DNA from: Parcubacteria group bacterium
GTDB taxonomy: Bacteria; Patescibacteriota; Minisyncoccia; Phycocordibacterales; 21-14-all-47-15
Direction of reading: 5' to 3'
Length of the DNA stretch: 33,132 nucleotides
NCBI GenBank assembly: GCA_016181845.1
Contig: JACOYO010000001.1
Coordinates: 1 to 33,132 of the forward strand
Shown: in pieces, positions 7,865 to 21,576 of the stretch
Numbering within the stretch: position 1 is the first letter of the stretch
Layout: the number at the start of each line of letters is the position of its first letter
Position numbers and translations under genes: made by a program
The notes under the pieces: generated by a model
What the model was told of the DNA's origin: nothing
Databases searched by the model: none
Seen by the model: only the letters and a program-made list of their open reading frames with translations

Positions 7865-9088
7865 TTATCTAACTGCCCAGAAATTAAGCGTGCCGTAAGT
7901 TGAAGTGGCTTCTCCTATCTGATTAAATATCTGAACACCAATAGTGTCTATCGCCGTAGATGATGCGCCAATAATAACAAACTCACTGGTAGTATTCGCC
8001 GGACTCACATGCGCCGCGAGTGAACTTGTTGCCTGAACAAACACCTTGTAGCTAGTGGTAATACCGGTAGCAGAAGTACATGCAACGCCCGCGGTGCTGG
8101 TAGCGGCGATTGATTTGGTGACAATGTTACATGTGCCAAATATCATCCCTGCAAGCGTTCCATTTGTACTATCACCGCCGACAATCAAACTGGTTGAACT
8201 TGCCGTGCCGACGACTTCAAATGTTGTATTCGGCGAGAGTGTGTTAATACCGATTCGCGCGTTTGCATCATCTGTATTCGTATTAATTGTAAATGATGGT
8301 GTAATGCTGGTAGATGTTGCGATGCTCCATGAATTTACTTTGTTGTCTTGAATGGTGGTCGTGGCTGTATTCCCCATTGCCATAACCCCGGAATTAACAG
8401 TGAGCGTGTCACCGATTGCATCTCCAAAAATATCAGAGCCATAAGTAGTGATCGCGCCAGTAAATTGCGCCGTGCTTGAACCAAAAATGCCACCGGCTGA
8501 ATTAATGAAGAGGACATTATCAGAAGCAAGAGAAGTGGTCTTTGCTTGAAACAAATTTGCACTCTGGCTCTCATACCCAACTAAAGTCAGAGGAATAGCT
8601 AATGTTGACGTTGCTTCAAGTGTCATCACCGAAGCTCCTTGCGGGGTTGTCGTTCCAAAAGTTATAAAATTCGTGGTAAGGTCGCTAAATTGAATACGAC
8701 TGCCGCTTAACACCGCACCACCCGTACTGGTAGCAACAGTAAACCAGCTCGTCCCATCATATAGTTTTATGATTTTGTTTGTTGAATCATAAAAAATAGT
8801 ACCTTCCGTTTGACCATTTGGTGAGGTGGCCATCATGCCAAGCACTAATGGCTGTGCCATGATAGTCGTTGTTCCATAAAGCGTTGACGCCCCAGTTACG
8901 ACCATGGTCGTAGAAGCGTGCAAGGCGCCATTTGCGGTTGTGATTCCAGAGACAGACAATGTGCCGTCTGTGCTAATATTTGTACTAATCGTACTTGACG
9001 CAAATACTGACGCCGCGACAAATGCAAACGAGAGCACAACTGACAAAACAACCGAATATACGTTCTTGTTTGTAATAAACTTTTTCAT
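7865..9088 (-). CDS. Secreted Ser/Thr-rich surface protein
   Basis: 407 residues from ATG 9088, the start that yields a signal peptide (VVLSVVLSFAFVAASVFA). The mature protein is almost entirely Ser, Thr, Ala, Gly and Val, with recurrent ATSTS / TSSL / VVG-type words and short beta-strand periods. One segment reads TEGTIFYDSTNKIIKLYDGT, followed by W; this resembles repeats in phage tail-fibre-like and long surface proteins. Such proteins are common in Candidate Phyla Radiation genomes. No enzymatic motif or anchor domain is visible. It is probably a surface or attachment protein. It lies directly upstream of the PGB-domain gene with no terminator between them, so the two may be co-expressed. 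Confidence 0.75.
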   Translation of the reverse strand: MKKFITNKNVYSVVLSVVLSFAFVAASVFASSTISTNISTDGTLSVSGITTANGALHASTTMVVTGASTLYGTTTIMAQPLVLGMMATSPNGQTEGTIFYDSTNKIIKLYDGTSWFTVATSTGGAVLSGSRIQFSDLTTNFITFGTTTPQGASVMTLEATSTLAIPLTLVGYESQSANLFQAKTTSLASDNVLFINSAGGIFGSSTAQFTGAITTYGSDIFGDAIGDTLTVNSGVMAMGNTATTTIQDNKVNSWSIATSTSITPSFTINTNTDDANARIGINTLSPNTTFEVVGTASSTSLIVGGDSTNGTLAGMIFGTCNIVTKSIAATSTAGVACTSATGITTSYKVFVQATSSLAAHVSPANTTSEFVIIGASSTAIDTIGVQIFNQIGEATSTYGTLNFWAVR

Positions 9089-9406
9089 ACTATTACTATG
9101 TTTGGTTGCATCAAACAATGATGCAACCTTTTTTAACTATTAATAATTATATTAAATAACTAAACTAATTTTCGACACTTTTAATAAATAATCCTCAATT
9201 GCACAATTAACGCGCCGCTATAAGCGGTTCGTATTTTTGTCTTCTTTAAAAATACTAATCTTAATTATACGATAGAAAATTTTAAAAGAGAAAAATAAAT
9301 ATGTGGATAACTAAATATATTTACATCACCTCACATGTAAAAACTAAATTTTCGAAGAAATTTTCAGAAACAATAAATCCACCTTTCCACATTTTTTGAA
9401 ACATAT
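9089..9406 (-). promoter_or_regulatory. Gene-free gap with probable promoter for the surface-protein unit
   Basis: About 320 nt of AT-rich sequence with no convincing gene. On the minus strand a perfect -10 TATAAT lies at 9269-9264 with only a weak -35 about 17 nt upstream. The resulting 5' UTR would be about 170 nt and contains two hairpins: GTATTTTT/AAAAATAC (about 9231-9255) and CCGCT-ATA-AGCGG (about 9214-9226). Confidence 0.45.
9302..9310 (-). other. DnaA-box-like 9-mer (TTATCCACA)
   Basis: Third exact TTATCCACA on the minus strand, in the AT-rich gap between the surface-protein gene and the DUF4956 unit. Confidence 0.3.
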
Positions 9407-17409: not shown

Positions 17410-18465
17410 CTACTTTTGAAGAATGTCGCCCCATTCGAGCGGTTTCCTTTTTTTTAAGTGGCGAGATGCTTTTGCCACCATCACCAAATCATAAAACATC
17501 GGGGACAATCCGAGCGCGGGCCGTAGGCTGGCGATATTTTTTTCGGTAAGTTTTTCACCTTTTTTTATATCACGGATCACCCACAACGACCGGCGAGCTT
17601 TCAGTTTTTCGTTTTTTTCAAGTACGGAGGGCGCTTTGCGCGATGAGCCTAAAGACTGCTCCGCCATCCTGATGGAAGAAACCATCTGTTTCAATTCGGA
17701 GGGATTCAGCGAAAACTTATCATCGACGGTGTGAACGCCGTCGTCAAGCATAAAATGCTTTTCAATGACTTTTGCTCCAAGAGCCACGGCAGTAATGGAA
17801 ATCGCAATCCCCAGCGTATGGTCTGAATATCCGATAACGTGTTCCGGAAAAACGCTTTGCATGGTTTGCATCGCCTTGAGATTGGTGTGTTCCGGCGGCG
17901 TCGGGTATACGCTTGAGCAGTGCAGGATGATAATGTCTTTTGCGCCCGCTTTCGTGAGCACATCAACCGCATATTCCACCTCGCTTAGAGTTGCCGCTCC
18001 AGTTGATACGATGACCGGCTTCCCTGTACTTGCAATCTTTCGCAACAGCGGAACATCCAAGAGCTCATAACTTGCGACTTTGTGCGCGGGCGCGCCAACC
18101 GCTTCAAGCAAATCCACCGCTTCGTTGTCAAAGGGTGTCGCCATAAATAAAATTTTTTTCGCGCGCGCGTATAGCGCAAGCTCTTTCAACCATTCTCGTG
18201 GGAATTCATTTTCCCGATAGAGGTCAATTAGCTTGGTCGGCTTTTTGACGAATGTCGGGGTGCGAACGATAGTGCGCGGGTCATCGGTATCGGCAGAAAT
18301 TTTTTCCGCGGTGAACAGCTGAAATTTCACCGCATCAGCTCGGGCTTCCGCCGCCACATCAATCATCTTTTTCGCCCGCTTGATATCCTTGCCGTGATTG
18401 GAACTCGCTTCGGCGATAATAAAGACGCGATTCCCATCTCCAACATTTTTATTGCCAATTTTCAT
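17410..18465 (-). CDS. pseI: Pseudaminic acid synthase (NeuB family)
   Basis: 351 residues, the usual length. A TIM-barrel NeuB domain (about 1-280) is followed by a SAF (antifreeze-like) C-terminal domain (about 285-351). The motifs FIIAEASSNHGKDIKRAKKM (15-34), KFQLFT (47-52), GYSDHTLG (212-219), VIEKHFML (233-240) and KFSLNPSEL (250-258) match PseI more closely than NeuB or LegI as I recall those sequences. It condenses phosphoenolpyruvate with a 2,4-diacetamido-trideoxyhexose to give the nine-carbon acid. The gene is its own transcription unit: terminators lie on both sides, and a promoter whose -10 sits 5 nt before ATG 18465 predicts a leaderless mRNA. Legionaminate or another nonulosonate is the main alternative product. 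Confidence 0.9.
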   Translation of the reverse strand: MKIGNKNVGDGNRVFIIAEASSNHGKDIKRAKKMIDVAAEARADAVKFQLFTAEKISADTDDPRTIVRTPTFVKKPTKLIDLYRENEFPREWLKELALYARAKKILFMATPFDNEAVDLLEAVGAPAHKVASYELLDVPLLRKIASTGKPVIVSTGAATLSEVEYAVDVLTKAGAKDIIILHCSSVYPTPPEHTNLKAMQTMQSVFPEHVIGYSDHTLGIAISITAVALGAKVIEKHFMLDDGVHTVDDKFSLNPSELKQMVSSIRMAEQSLGSSRKAPSVLEKNEKLKARRSLWVIRDIKKGEKLTEKNIASLRPALGLSPMFYDLVMVAKASRHLKKRKPLEWGDILQK

Positions 18466-18470
18466 ACCCC

Positions 18471-18499
18471 ATTATTGTTTTTTTCTATTTTTATGTCAA
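18471..18499 (-). promoter_or_regulatory. Promoter of pseI (leaderless)
   Basis: Minus-strand TTGACA (18499-18494), a 17-nt spacer, AATAAT (18476-18471), then GGGGT and the ATG. Transcription should begin at or within a base or two of the start codon. Confidence 0.6.
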
Positions 18500-18509
18500 C
18501 TACATACAA

Positions 18510-18542
18510 AAAAGGCAGTCCGTCAAAGACGTCCTGCCTTTT
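18510..18542 (-). terminator. Terminator after the beta-propeller gene
   Basis: Interrupted stem AAAAGGCAG..CGTC / GACG..CTGCCTTTT with a 3-nt loop and TTTTTTG after it on the minus strand, 6 nt after the stop at 18548. It separates the pseG unit from pseI. Confidence 0.82.
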
Positions 18543-18547
18543 AAAAA

Positions 18548-19462
18548 TCATTCCTCAAGCTGGGCCAGCCCAATACCGTCTCTCCCAAATCCGTTGCCGT
18601 TGTAGAGCATGTACCGCTCTCCCTCGTGGTCAAAGACACAGGGATAGTCAATCATTTCCGAATCAAAACCGGATTCTGAAACATCAATCCCCACCCGTTC
18701 GTCCATGCGCTCCCACCGGATACCGTCCAAAGATTCGGCATATCCGATGCGATAACTTCCGTAATTCTGGCGATAGGAATACCACATCTTATAGACCACA
18801 TGTTCTTTAAGCACGTACGGCCGCGCCACTGCTTCTTCTTTGTCGGAACCCAAGCAGGTAACATTGTCACTTTTCCAATGTATGCCGTCTTGAGATTGTG
18901 CCGAACGTATTTCATAATGCGGCCATGATTCATTTCCGCGCATCTCCCAGTATCGATAACTGGCATACCACATCCGAAAGATGCCTTTGTCATACATAAC
19001 GAACGGAGACGCTCTGCCGAACGGTTCATCATCGGTCCTCTCAAAGACAGGAGCGCGAGAATATTTTGTGAATGTTTCTCCGCCGTCAGTTGATGTAGCA
19101 AGTCCGATGGATGGCAAATAACGTATGTCTGCCGTGCCCTGCCATCCGACATAATAGATAAATTTGCTTCCCTGATACTCCGCAAACGAGCAAGCGATGG
19201 CCAATCTTTCATCAAACGCGCCAAGCGGTCCCAATTCTATGATTGGTTTTTCAGACACTTCGAGTGTATGCGCAGGATTTTTTATATTGAAGACAAAAAA
19301 TCCCGTTTGAGAGCGCTTTTTTGCATTGAGCCCTCCAAAATACACTTTGAACAAATCTTCGCCCAAATATTCCACTGTCGGCACCCATGCCCTGCCCTCC
19401 ATCCACTCTAAATGCCGATAGTCCGCCGTCTTAAATATCAATCCTTTTTTTATCCAACGCAT
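18548..19462 (-). CDS. Glycosidase-like five-bladed beta-propeller protein
   Basis: 304 residues from ATG 19462, chosen over ATG 19471 because AAAGGA lies 8 nt before it. The sequence repeats blades of the type FRMWYASYRYWEMRG, HYEIRSAQSQDGIHWKSDN, YKMWYSYRQNYGSYRIGYAE and YMLYNGNGFGRDGIGLAQLE, each with a G/S-x-D-G-x-x-W/F turn. That is the pattern of the GH43/GH32/GH62/GH68 superfamily and related uncharacterised proteins. Conserved acidic residues (for example in DDEPFGRASPF and SEMIDYPCV) could be catalytic. There is no signal peptide, so it acts in the cytoplasm. It directly follows pseG (15-nt gap to the ATG 19471 alternative). It may act on a nucleotide-sugar or glycan intermediate; that is inferred from position only. 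Confidence 0.72.
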   Translation of the reverse strand: MRWIKKGLIFKTADYRHLEWMEGRAWVPTVEYLGEDLFKVYFGGLNAKKRSQTGFFVFNIKNPAHTLEVSEKPIIELGPLGAFDERLAIACSFAEYQGSKFIYYVGWQGTADIRYLPSIGLATSTDGGETFTKYSRAPVFERTDDEPFGRASPFVMYDKGIFRMWYASYRYWEMRGNESWPHYEIRSAQSQDGIHWKSDNVTCLGSDKEEAVARPYVLKEHVVYKMWYSYRQNYGSYRIGYAESLDGIRWERMDERVGIDVSESGFDSEMIDYPCVFDHEGERYMLYNGNGFGRDGIGLAQLEE

Positions 19463-19492
19463 GAGAAACATCCTTTCTTCAAAAAAGAAATT

Positions 19493-20578
19493 TTACGTGA
19501 GAACATTTTTTAACACTTCATGGTAAATACGCTCTGCCCCGCGTCCGTCCAGTGATTTTTTTCCTGCTTGCGACATAGAGAGCCGCGCATCATAGTCATT
19601 CAGTATGTTTTCTATTTCCAAAAAAATTTCTTTGGACGAGAGTTTAGTTCCTTGCCCTATGTAACGCACGCTTCCGAGAGACAAAAAATCTTTGATGACC
19701 GGTTCTGTACCGTCACAAAATTGCGTTATCATAAGTGTCGGCGTGCCGATAATAGCCGCCTCGAATTTAGTAAGTCCGTCTCCCAAAATAGCAACATCGG
19801 CCCACGAAAGAAGACGGTAAAATTCATCCGTAAATCCGACAACATCTATGTTTTTTTTGCTTTTGACAGCCCGCTTGATAAGATTACGGTCTGTTTCTTT
19901 CATGGCGGAGCCCGCAACTATTTTTGCCGAAACAGTATCGTCAGGAAACATCGTGAGCGCTCTCGCTACTTTTGAAGTAATCCCGAGCGGGTCGCTTCCG
20001 CTGATACTCACCGCGACACGTGATGCTTTTTTTCTTATGGTTTTCTTTTTGTTTCCCGCTTCGGCAATGCGCGGATGACAGATGAAATATTTCATGTCTT
20101 CAAGTATGGCGCACCCGTTCAAGGCTTCACGCTTGGCATCTTTTTTAGCAATAGAATTATAAATAAAAGCCGCATCGCTTGAAAATACGTTTGTCCGCGC
20201 ATCCTCTATACTTAACACAAAAGCGTCCCCGTGTTTTTTCAATGCGATATGATAACGCGAGAGGCCAAGCGGCTTCTGAAACGCGTCTTGAGTGCATAAG
20301 TCAGTAACAATAACCGGCGCATGTAGGGCGTATGCAAACCTCGCGGTATGCTTGGCATCATTCTCCCAAGTCATTTTCGGAGACAAGACATTGATGTCCC
20401 ATCTTTTAGAAACAAGAAAATCTGTCATTTGTTTTACATCAGCACTCTCTCTAATGACCAGATGCGGGATGATTGGTACCGGCAATCCTTCGGCGAAAGC
20501 CCAGCATCTCATGATATGCCCGAGGCCGACAGCGTTTGAGGCATCGGCGCGAAATACGATATGATGTTTTTGCAACAT
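19493..20578 (-). CDS. pseG: UDP-2,4-diacetamido-2,4,6-trideoxy-beta-L-altropyranose hydrolase (PseG)
   Basis: 361 residues with the two-domain GT-B fold of PseG. FRADASNAVGLGHIMRC (9-25) contains the GxGHxxRC signature with the catalytic His (H21). A second nucleotide-binding motif, SISGSDPLGITSKVARAL, begins at 191, and AILGDGLTKFEAAIIGTP (263-280) is the donor-site helix. The enzyme removes UDP to release the free hexose used by PseI. It opens a unit with the beta-propeller gene. Its promoter -10 (20594-20589) is about 10 nt before ATG 20578, and an 11-bp inverted repeat spans the -10 and the first transcribed bases. The family also includes LegG-like enzymes, so exact stereochemistry is uncertain. 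Confidence 0.9.
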   Translation of the reverse strand: MLQKHHIVFRADASNAVGLGHIMRCWAFAEGLPVPIIPHLVIRESADVKQMTDFLVSKRWDINVLSPKMTWENDAKHTARFAYALHAPVIVTDLCTQDAFQKPLGLSRYHIALKKHGDAFVLSIEDARTNVFSSDAAFIYNSIAKKDAKREALNGCAILEDMKYFICHPRIAEAGNKKKTIRKKASRVAVSISGSDPLGITSKVARALTMFPDDTVSAKIVAGSAMKETDRNLIKRAVKSKKNIDVVGFTDEFYRLLSWADVAILGDGLTKFEAAIIGTPTLMITQFCDGTEPVIKDFLSLGSVRYIGQGTKLSSKEIFLEIENILNDYDARLSMSQAGKKSLDGRGAERIYHEVLKNVLT

Positions 20579-20618
20579 GGTTGTTAAGATATTACTCTTA
20601 ACAACCTATCGTAGTCAA
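20579..20618 (-). promoter_or_regulatory. Promoter and operator-like inverted repeat of pseG
   Basis: Minus-strand TTGACT (20618-20613), an 18-nt spacer and TAATAT (20594-20589) predict initiation near 20582, about 4 nt before the ATG. Overlapping it is a perfect inverted repeat, GGTTGTTAAGA-N6-TCTTAACAACC (20579-20606), ending one base from the start codon. It could be an operator, or a hairpin if transcription starts further upstream. Confidence 0.55.
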
Positions 20619-20750
20619 CATTTATTCTCTATATAATTTTCAAAAAACACTATTTTCTTGTTTTTGACATTACCATTTTTATTTATTTTGTCTAGTGAGG
20701 AGCGAAGACGAGGTGCTTTTATTTTGTCTAGCTTCAATAATAAAAGACAA

Positions 20751-20790
20751 TAAAAAAAACAGCCCAACTAACTAAATAGTGTGGGCTGTT
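20751..20790 (-). terminator. Terminator after the methyltransferase gene
   Basis: Stem AACAGCCCA / TGGGCTGTT with a 15-nt loop and a long T-run on the minus strand, 13 nt after the stop at 20803. The rest of the 20619-20750 gap is AT-rich with a short direct repeat TTTATTTTGTCTAG (20682-20695, 20718-20731). Confidence 0.8.
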
Positions 20791-20802
20791 AAAGCAAAAC
20801 AA

Positions 20803-21576
20803 TCACTTCATTGTAAAGTAGGTTCTCCCCGGCATGAAATCCGATTTTTTCACCGAGAAAGAGGCGCCAGCAAAAACTTCTTTAAAGGCCATCGTCTCCC
20901 CGGGGAAATCTTTATGGTTACATTCGTCAAGCATGACGACGCTCCCCGGCAAAAGGTGCGGACGGATTGCTTCAAAGGCGGCTTTTGACGGTTCATAAAG
21001 AGCTAGGTCGGAATAGACCAGAGCCACCACCATGCCGTTATTTTCTGTAAAAAACTTTGGCACCGTTTCAGCGGCATTCCCCTTCACCAATTGAACTCGA
21101 TTGACCGTCGGGGAGACGCTATTTTTTTCATGATAATCGATGAGGTCTTCAAGATATTTTTTATACCCTTCAATGACCGCATATCCCCCTTCTTTGATAG
21201 TCTCGCTTCGTATGTCTTTGACGGAAATTGATTTATATCCTTCAAAGGTATCAAAGCCAACGATTCGACGCTGTTCCCACGGCTCATAAATCGCACGAAG
21301 ATTTTCAAAGACAATCAAATTCTGCCCCCACCATGAACCGAGCTCAACGATAATCCCAGGCTGATTTTTAATCATTCGATACGCTTCATTGAGAAACAAA
21401 ATCTTTGTCAGGGCCGAACTGCGCATGTAGAGACCGAGGTTGACCAAAAGCTGGTCTGTGTCCATGGGGCGCTCTTCAAACAACTTATAAAGATGCCGCC
21501 TGTCGGTAATTTGTTTTTCACTGGCAGTGGTTTCTCTTTTATAATTTTTGGTTCTGTCTTTTTTGGTCACTCTCAT
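20803..21576 (-). CDS. SAM-dependent methyltransferase, TylF/MycF-like
   Basis: 257 residues. The SAM-binding motif I is IIVELGSWWGQNLIVFENL (about 74-92). After RRIVGFDTFEGYKS comes LVYSDLALYEPSKAAFEAI and VVMLDECNHKDFPGETMAF, the Asp-rich metal site layout of TylF/macrocin O-methyltransferase-type enzymes, which methylate sugar hydroxyls. A basic N-terminal tail (about 1-35) precedes the fold. A strong ribosome binding site (AAGGAG, 9-nt spacing) supports ATG 21576. It is a single-gene unit: a terminator follows, and upstream lies a 186-bp MITE-like element, so its promoter must be in or beyond that element. Sugar O-methylation of the nonulosonate glycan is the likely role, inferred from context. 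Confidence 0.75.
   Translation of the reverse strand: MRVTKKDRTKNYKRETTASEKQITDRRHLYKLFEERPMDTDQLLVNLGLYMRSSALTKILFLNEAYRMIKNQPGIIVELGSWWGQNLIVFENLRAIYEPWEQRRIVGFDTFEGYKSISVKDIRSETIKEGGYAVIEGYKKYLEDLIDYHEKNSVSPTVNRVQLVKGNAAETVPKFFTENNGMVVALVYSDLALYEPSKAAFEAIRPHLLPGSVVMLDECNHKDFPGETMAFKEVFAGASFSVKKSDFMPGRTYFTMK

Follow-up and report, generated by a model that had tools for sequence, protein, structure and literature searches.

Within the 33,132-nt stretch of DNA analysed here (the window), a perfect inverted repeat lies over a predicted promoter and touches the start codon of a pseG-like gene. The locus raises the question of where such a palindrome came from and whether it controls the gene; the first-pass annotation had read it as an operator through which pseG might be repressed. 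The features needed at the outset are the following.

20579..20606, no strand assigned: perfect 11-bp inverted repeat with a 6-nt loop, abutting the pseG ATG
19493..20578, minus strand: pseG-like gene, 361 aa (TIGR03590, E 3.5e-27)
17410..18465, minus strand: pseI, pseudaminic acid synthase (TIGR03586, 359.9 bits, cut-off 340.25)

The name pseG is the best one for what appears to be a PseG-like product, and it is taken from the best hit and the neighbourhood only: the score against TIGR03590, 95.7 bits, falls short of the curated cut-off (153.55), and the neighbouring PseB, PseC and PseI pass their profile cut-offs. Searches of the PDB gave weak matches to the C-termini of UDP-GlcNAc 2-epimerases alone, and the start of the pseG product was not covered by them.

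The arms of the repeat, GGTTGTTAAGA and TCTTAACAACC, are separated by 6 nt and are 100% complementary, as first described; the distance to the pseG ATG (20578-20576, minus strand), which had been given as one base, is 0 bases. The range originally assigned, 20579-20618, does contain the repeat, which stops at 20606, the remainder taking in the -35 hexamer. In a first-order Markov simulation, perfect 11-nt arms with a loop of 3–8 nt and an end 0–1 nt before the start arose at a rate of 4/400,000; the position of the palindrome next to the start is more than chance. This genome has many short palindromes: 164 perfect ones with arms of at least 9 nt were found in 289.5 kb (the window plus the 14 usable stretches of 15, L006-L020 without L012), and 40 of the 164 lay within 40 nt of the start of a called ORF. 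Among these 40, the pseG palindrome was the only one ending 0–2 nt before an ATG start, and two others in the sample overlapped an ATG start by 2–3 nt. When the whole genome was searched for the repeat, no second copy was recovered, either exactly or at up to 3 mismatches.

Several other palindromes were recorded in the window and the own-genome sample. A perfect palindrome at window positions 9104-9128, GGTTGCATCA-N5-TGATGCAACC, lies 15 nt before an ATG of ORF 7865-9118 (minus strand). Families of short perfect palindromes recur with the cores TTGGACATCGGATGTCCAA, ACTTGGACGTC...GACGTCCAAGT, CCTTTCGATATATCGAAAGG, TTCGGCTATGCGATAGCCGAA, and ACAAAGGTTCCTCCTTTGT, and one CCTTTCGATATATCGAAAGG copy stops just before an ATG triplet (L015 2938-2965). 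At L015 16336-16371, a TTGACA promoter is followed by a 12-bp palindrome that starts immediately past the -10 and extends over the opening codons of a 243-aa ORF, a layout that resembles the pseG site in unrelated sequence. An Rfam search of the window returned 23S rRNA at the left edge only, and no known RNA family at the palindrome; the 23S rRNA gene occupies positions 1-2950 on the minus strand and is truncated by the window edge, the match covering positions 1-2406 of 2925.

The origin of the palindrome was indicated by its occurrence elsewhere. An exact scan of 84,980 genomes with 10-bp arms and the 6-nt loop returned four stretches, against a chance expectation of 0.2–0.8 by our own estimate. 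Three are in Patescibacteria (two contigs of Parcubacteria bacterium GW2011_GWA2_40_143 and one in the Patescibacteria isolate KR13_S3.mb.32, hereafter KR13), and the fourth is in a Dysgonomonas MAG. The Dysgonomonas palindrome (L023) was set aside as unrelated, since it lacks the TTGACTACG terminus and has no match to the 22-mer described below. In KR13 (L024), a transposase gene cut off by the contig end has the palindrome immediately ahead of its ATG; the truncated product scores 197.9 bits with the IS481 model, below the cut-off of 224, and has a Pfam rve match.

A 22-mer overlapping the palindrome, TGACTACGATAGGTTGTTAAGA, is found at the left ends of insertion sequences (IS) in other genomes. 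With up to 3 mismatches allowed, its sole match in the own genome is the pseG site; KR13 has one match, at the transposase, and in GW2011_GWA2_40_143 the matches are two transposase starts, both sitting at contig ends, and two solo palindromes. These solo copies (L022 5310-5367 and L021 1456-1513) are 58-bp palindromes in which the IS left end is joined to its own inverted copy and no transposase is present; they may be miniature-element-like, or else IS copies that were collapsed during assembly. Across 379 genomes of the phylum, three were positive for the 22-mer: the own genome and those designated G327 and G630. The G630 match, at 3 mismatches, was treated as chance; its second arm is missing, and a reversed control pattern also gave one match (G454). 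No match was found in viral contigs.

The G327 locus is a complete element, reading from its left terminus TGTTTGACTACGATACGTTGTTAGGA through the inner arm TCTTAACAACC and the ATG into a 309-aa ORF and on to a right terminus. Its product scores 228.3 bits against the IS481 model (NCBIfam NF033577), passing the cut-off of 224, and the KR13 and G327 transposases are identical at 177/278 positions. The right and left termini both begin with TGT and match at 19/25 bases (6 mismatches); no target duplication was clear by eye. Its -10, TATAAT, lies 18 nt from TTGACT.

Alignment of the pseG upstream region with these elements gave the following features.

20561..20620, minus strand: IS481-family left-end relic, running from the TGT terminus at 20620 through the terminal repeat, promoter and inner palindrome to transposase codon 6, start codon included
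20561..20578, minus strand: pseG codons 1–6, encoding MLQKHH, the homologous counterpart of transposase MLQKLH
20613..20618, minus strand: predicted pseG -35, TTGACT, inside the IS terminal repeat; the same hexamer is present in all four aligned IS left ends
20589..20594, minus strand: predicted pseG -10, TAATAT, 18 nt from the -35

The alignable IS left ends number four and represent three distinct sequences. Window positions 20620-20561 are identical to KR13 in 56/61 columns, to the copy G297 in 52/61 and to G327 in 51/63, as counted on a hand-set alignment from which a five-row MAFFT alignment differs in the placement of a one-base gap. Similarity ends sharply: in the next 18 columns after codon 6, pseG agrees with KR13, G297, and G327 at only 5, 5, and 4 positions, whereas the KR13 and G327 transposase genes agree with each other at 16/18. 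Upstream of the TGT, the flanks differ between copies. At the protein level, PseG begins MLQKHH-IVFRADAS, and the KR13 and G327 transposases begin MLQKLHKNAK and MLQKLHQNAK, respectively. The TIGR03590 alignment opens at residue 6 of the pseG product, corresponding to profile position 2, and therefore the extra N-terminal residues are the transposase ones. When ATG, GTG, and TTG were searched, the start codons ahead of residue 6 were the ATG and a TTG only, both IS-derived.

These results point to the palindrome and promoter before pseG being the relic of an IS481-family left end that supplied the gene with a promoter, a start codon, and six codons, a reading to which we assign a probability of roughly 0.8. 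As judged from sequence, it draws on DNA homology, on the sharp end of that homology at codon 6, and on promoter hexamers found at the equivalent position in other IS copies. The segment has the TGT terminus, terminal repeat, and transposase promoter and start codon within ~60 bp that characterize the IS481-family (NCBIfam NF033577) left end; unlike a complete member of the family, the window copy keeps the left end and six codons only, the transposase gene and right end both being missing. A right end, a target duplication, and a transposase fragment were all looked for around pseG and in the own genome without success, and we infer the full insertion from one end for this reason. With a single terminal repeat in the window and no transposase match in the own genome, the IS is absent today as far as the searches reach. 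The search for a close pseG lacking the relic, from which the ancestral state could be read, gave none; besides the own genome, 3/197 genomes had a weak pseG match, at 22–29% identity.

An abundance of short palindromes in this genome could suggest that the resemblance arose by chance, or that the hairpin is an ordinary terminator. We consider this hardly credible, given that 22/22 bases are shared with elements in other genomes and that homology continues into the coding region. The terminator candidate was rejected because no U-run follows the hairpin on either strand.

Only about 60 bp are shared, and IS ends are known to break assemblies, as illustrated by the two IS copies that end contigs in GW2011_GWA2_40_143. 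A read or contig bearing an IS left end might thus have been wrongly joined to pseG, in which case the fusion would exist in no cell. Such a chimera is improbable: no other copy of the IS end was recovered from the own genome at up to 3 mismatches, and the join keeps the reading frame and falls 1–2 codons from the expected PseG start.

The operator proposed in the first-pass annotation, at which a dimeric repressor would bind over the -10 and block pseG transcription, has in its favor the perfect dyad symmetry of the site and the location of its center near the -10 of the predicted promoter, as in many repressor sites. A transposase may also bind its own terminal repeat in an intact IS. However, the arms and loop are accounted for by homology to the IS, the site has no second copy within 3 mismatches in the genome, no transposase that could bind it was matched in the own genome, and Pfam and NCBIfam named no DNA-binding regulator among the 22 distinct window ORFs scanned, of the 66 listed. 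Repression of pseG from what is a single-copy IS481 left end is accordingly not supported, and we regard an operator as very improbable.

Under the IS-relic interpretation, an IS481-family element would once have sat at the head of pseG. A deletion would then have removed the element after transposase codon 6, joining this codon in frame to native pseG codon 2 or 3. We infer this order of insertion and deletion, together with promoter activity and the site of the transcription start: the promoter and start codon of the transposase would now serve for the transcription and translation of pseG, with a predicted leader of about 4 nt. The surrounding transcription units are delimited by these features.

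18548..19471, minus strand: glycoside-hydrolase-130-like gene just downstream of pseG, gap 21 nt
18510..18543, minus strand: terminator hairpin after gene 18548-19471 (-19.9 kcal/mol, z -6.6), followed by a U-run
20750..20791, minus strand: terminator hairpin (-17.9 kcal/mol, z -4.0) with trailing U-run, belonging to the upstream neighbor of pseG (20803-21576)

The GH130-like gene is probably co-transcribed with pseG, and the IS promoter would also drive this gene, 21 nt downstream, up to the terminator at ~18510-18543; that hairpin separates the GH130-like gene from pseI. Between pseG and the upstream terminator, a 14-bp direct repeat, TTTATTTTGTCTAG, is present at window positions 20682-20695 and 20718-20731, 36 nt apart.

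Fold-back control acts on the read-through transcripts of IS10 and IS50. From the few copies available, we propose that the palindrome is an RNA fold-back hairpin of the IS that would form in read-through transcripts only. With the promoter situated within the stem, the stem at pseG could be formed by read-through RNA alone. RNA begun at the IS promoter would lack the 5' arm and so be free, and read-through RNA arriving from upstream would carry both arms, fold against the ATG, and escape translation. The read-through hairpin was computed at -14.1 kcal/mol. Most differences in the arms preserve pairing as G-U in the transposase-sense RNA, namely C to T at the last 1–2 bases of the 3' arm (KR13 and G297) and, within the 5' arm of G327, A to G, and these same differences weaken antisense pairing; one change at the outermost pair in G327 breaks pairing. 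The folding energies for all copies, sense/antisense, are -14.1/-13.2, -12.4/-10.9, -10.2/-7.8, and -12.0/-7.4, the sense strand being better in each. As far as three distinct variants besides the window can show, the arm changes are in line with selection on an RNA hairpin.

Computed AUG accessibility was low in both cases, at 0.16–0.30 for the predicted native pseG RNA and 0.01–0.27 for read-through RNA. The difference is modest, and therefore the idea of insulation rests on the 28 nt upstream of the start, for which the mean unpaired value was 0.22, the fifth lowest of 237 starts. The partial pairing of the pseG AUG even in the predicted native RNA counts against a simple fold-back picture. 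We tentatively suggest that the IS carries a leaderless fold-back control and that pseG, by taking the whole module, might be insulated from outside transcription and answer only to the transposon promoter, although we lean against this extension. Of 45 distant IS481-like loci, scored at 171 candidate starts, 16 had a stem of at least 9 bp (G-U allowed), and only that of G327 (L094) abuts its ATG likewise. Distant loci mostly lack such a hairpin, which also counts against a simple picture; the hairpin belongs to the present IS subgroup. The phrase fold-back control was absent from the papers listed in a literature search for such control of read-through transcripts. A stem-loop just upstream of the transposase start is also a feature of IS200, where the structured 5' region of tnpA limits translation of the transposase mRNA as reported in PMC12594629; the stem described there hides the ribosome-binding site, whereas here no Shine-Dalgarno sequence can be seen and the stem contains the promoter.

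The near-leaderless start predicted for pseG was evaluated together with that of pseI, which has the following promoter.

18471..18499, minus strand: predicted pseI promoter, TTGACA-17-AATAAT, ending 5 nt before the ATG at 18465

The hexamers were found as initially reported, TTGACT-18-TAATAT for pseG and a pseI -10 at 5 nt from the ATG, and they match consensus at 9/12 and 11/12 positions, respectively; predicted leaders are about 4 nt for pseG and about 0 nt for pseI. A promoter scan found 14 promoter-like sites as compared with 9.9 (sd 2.9) in shuffles, and hexamers alone are thus weak evidence. At the IS left ends, the 18-nt spacing is the same in the other copies, with TAATAT as the -10 in KR13 and G297 and TATAAT in G327.

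A genome-wide -10-like peak was present 12–13 nt ahead of first ATGs in the 289.5-kb own-genome sample. With the first ATG of each greedy ORF taken mechanically as the gene start, TANNNT peaked at -13, in 25/181 transcript-first starts, with single digits at most other positions; 63/181 starts had a TANNNT starting between -16 and -11, against 18–32 in seven control windows (p 3e-11). Shine-Dalgarno-like 4-mers preceded 32/181 starts as compared with 15 in a control window. A -35 matching at least 5/6 was found at 7/72 near-start -10s and 4/115 controls (p 0.076), a weak test. For codirectional genes with small gaps, near-start TANNNT occurred in 16/56 versus 3–8, and the sharp -13 peak was absent. 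The pseI -10 starts at -11 and fits the genome-wide pattern, and that of pseG is slightly off the peak. These data suggest that leaderless starts are common in this genome.

Conservation of the pseI promoter position was assessed at 29 orthologue loci, of which the 22 with an ATG near the expected start were retained and the 7 without were dropped. TANNNT starting between -16 and -11 was present in 5/22, near background at starts that are themselves uncertain, and thus gave no support for conservation among these 22 loci. The proposal that both genes are nearly leaderless is therefore upheld as a prediction, by the genome-wide -10 peak and the pseI promoter, and not by conservation of the pseI position. 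Leaderless genes with a -10 motif beside the ORF are described in many bacteria, especially Actinobacteria and Deinococcus-Thermus (PMC3160421; PMC12340547); the present sites share the TANNNT about 10–13 nt before the start and differ in belonging to a Patescibacteria genome. Among the papers listed in literature searches, none was on leaderless genes in Patescibacteria and none combined 'leaderless mRNA' with 'Parcubacteria'; one applied the term 'leaderless' to YchF, and another, PMC10434106, contains the word once.

Activation of neighboring genes by IS promoters is well described, as in the review PMC9330008. In Bordetella pertussis, the outward promoter Pout of IS481 is reported to drive katA and bteA (PMC11774165). 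In that case too an IS481-family promoter transcribes a neighboring host gene, but it points outward with the genes downstream, whereas the window has the inward transposase promoter together with the transposase start codon. Eleven chimeric coding sequences with a 5' end from mobile DNA are listed for Pseudomonas syringae pv. phaseolicola and were judged likely altered or non-functional (PMC3189936). Mobile DNA similarly gives the 5' end of the coding sequence at pseG; unlike those cases, pseG keeps its frame, and the added residues precede the conserved PseG domain.

IS-driven gene expression is thus known, and what would be new here is the route through the transposase start itself. The pseG locus would represent a base-resolution case in which a transposon end has come to serve a surface-sugar gene as its complete start module, promoter and start codon, in a lineage that is streamlined and uncultured and whose gene regulation is hardly known. 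Because leaderless genes have their promoter within a few bases of the start codon, the two can fit together on one short piece of DNA; if this interpretation is correct, takeovers of genes by IS ends would be unusually easy in leaderless systems. The genome-wide -10 signal, in turn, makes leaderless initiation in Patescibacteria a concrete claim.
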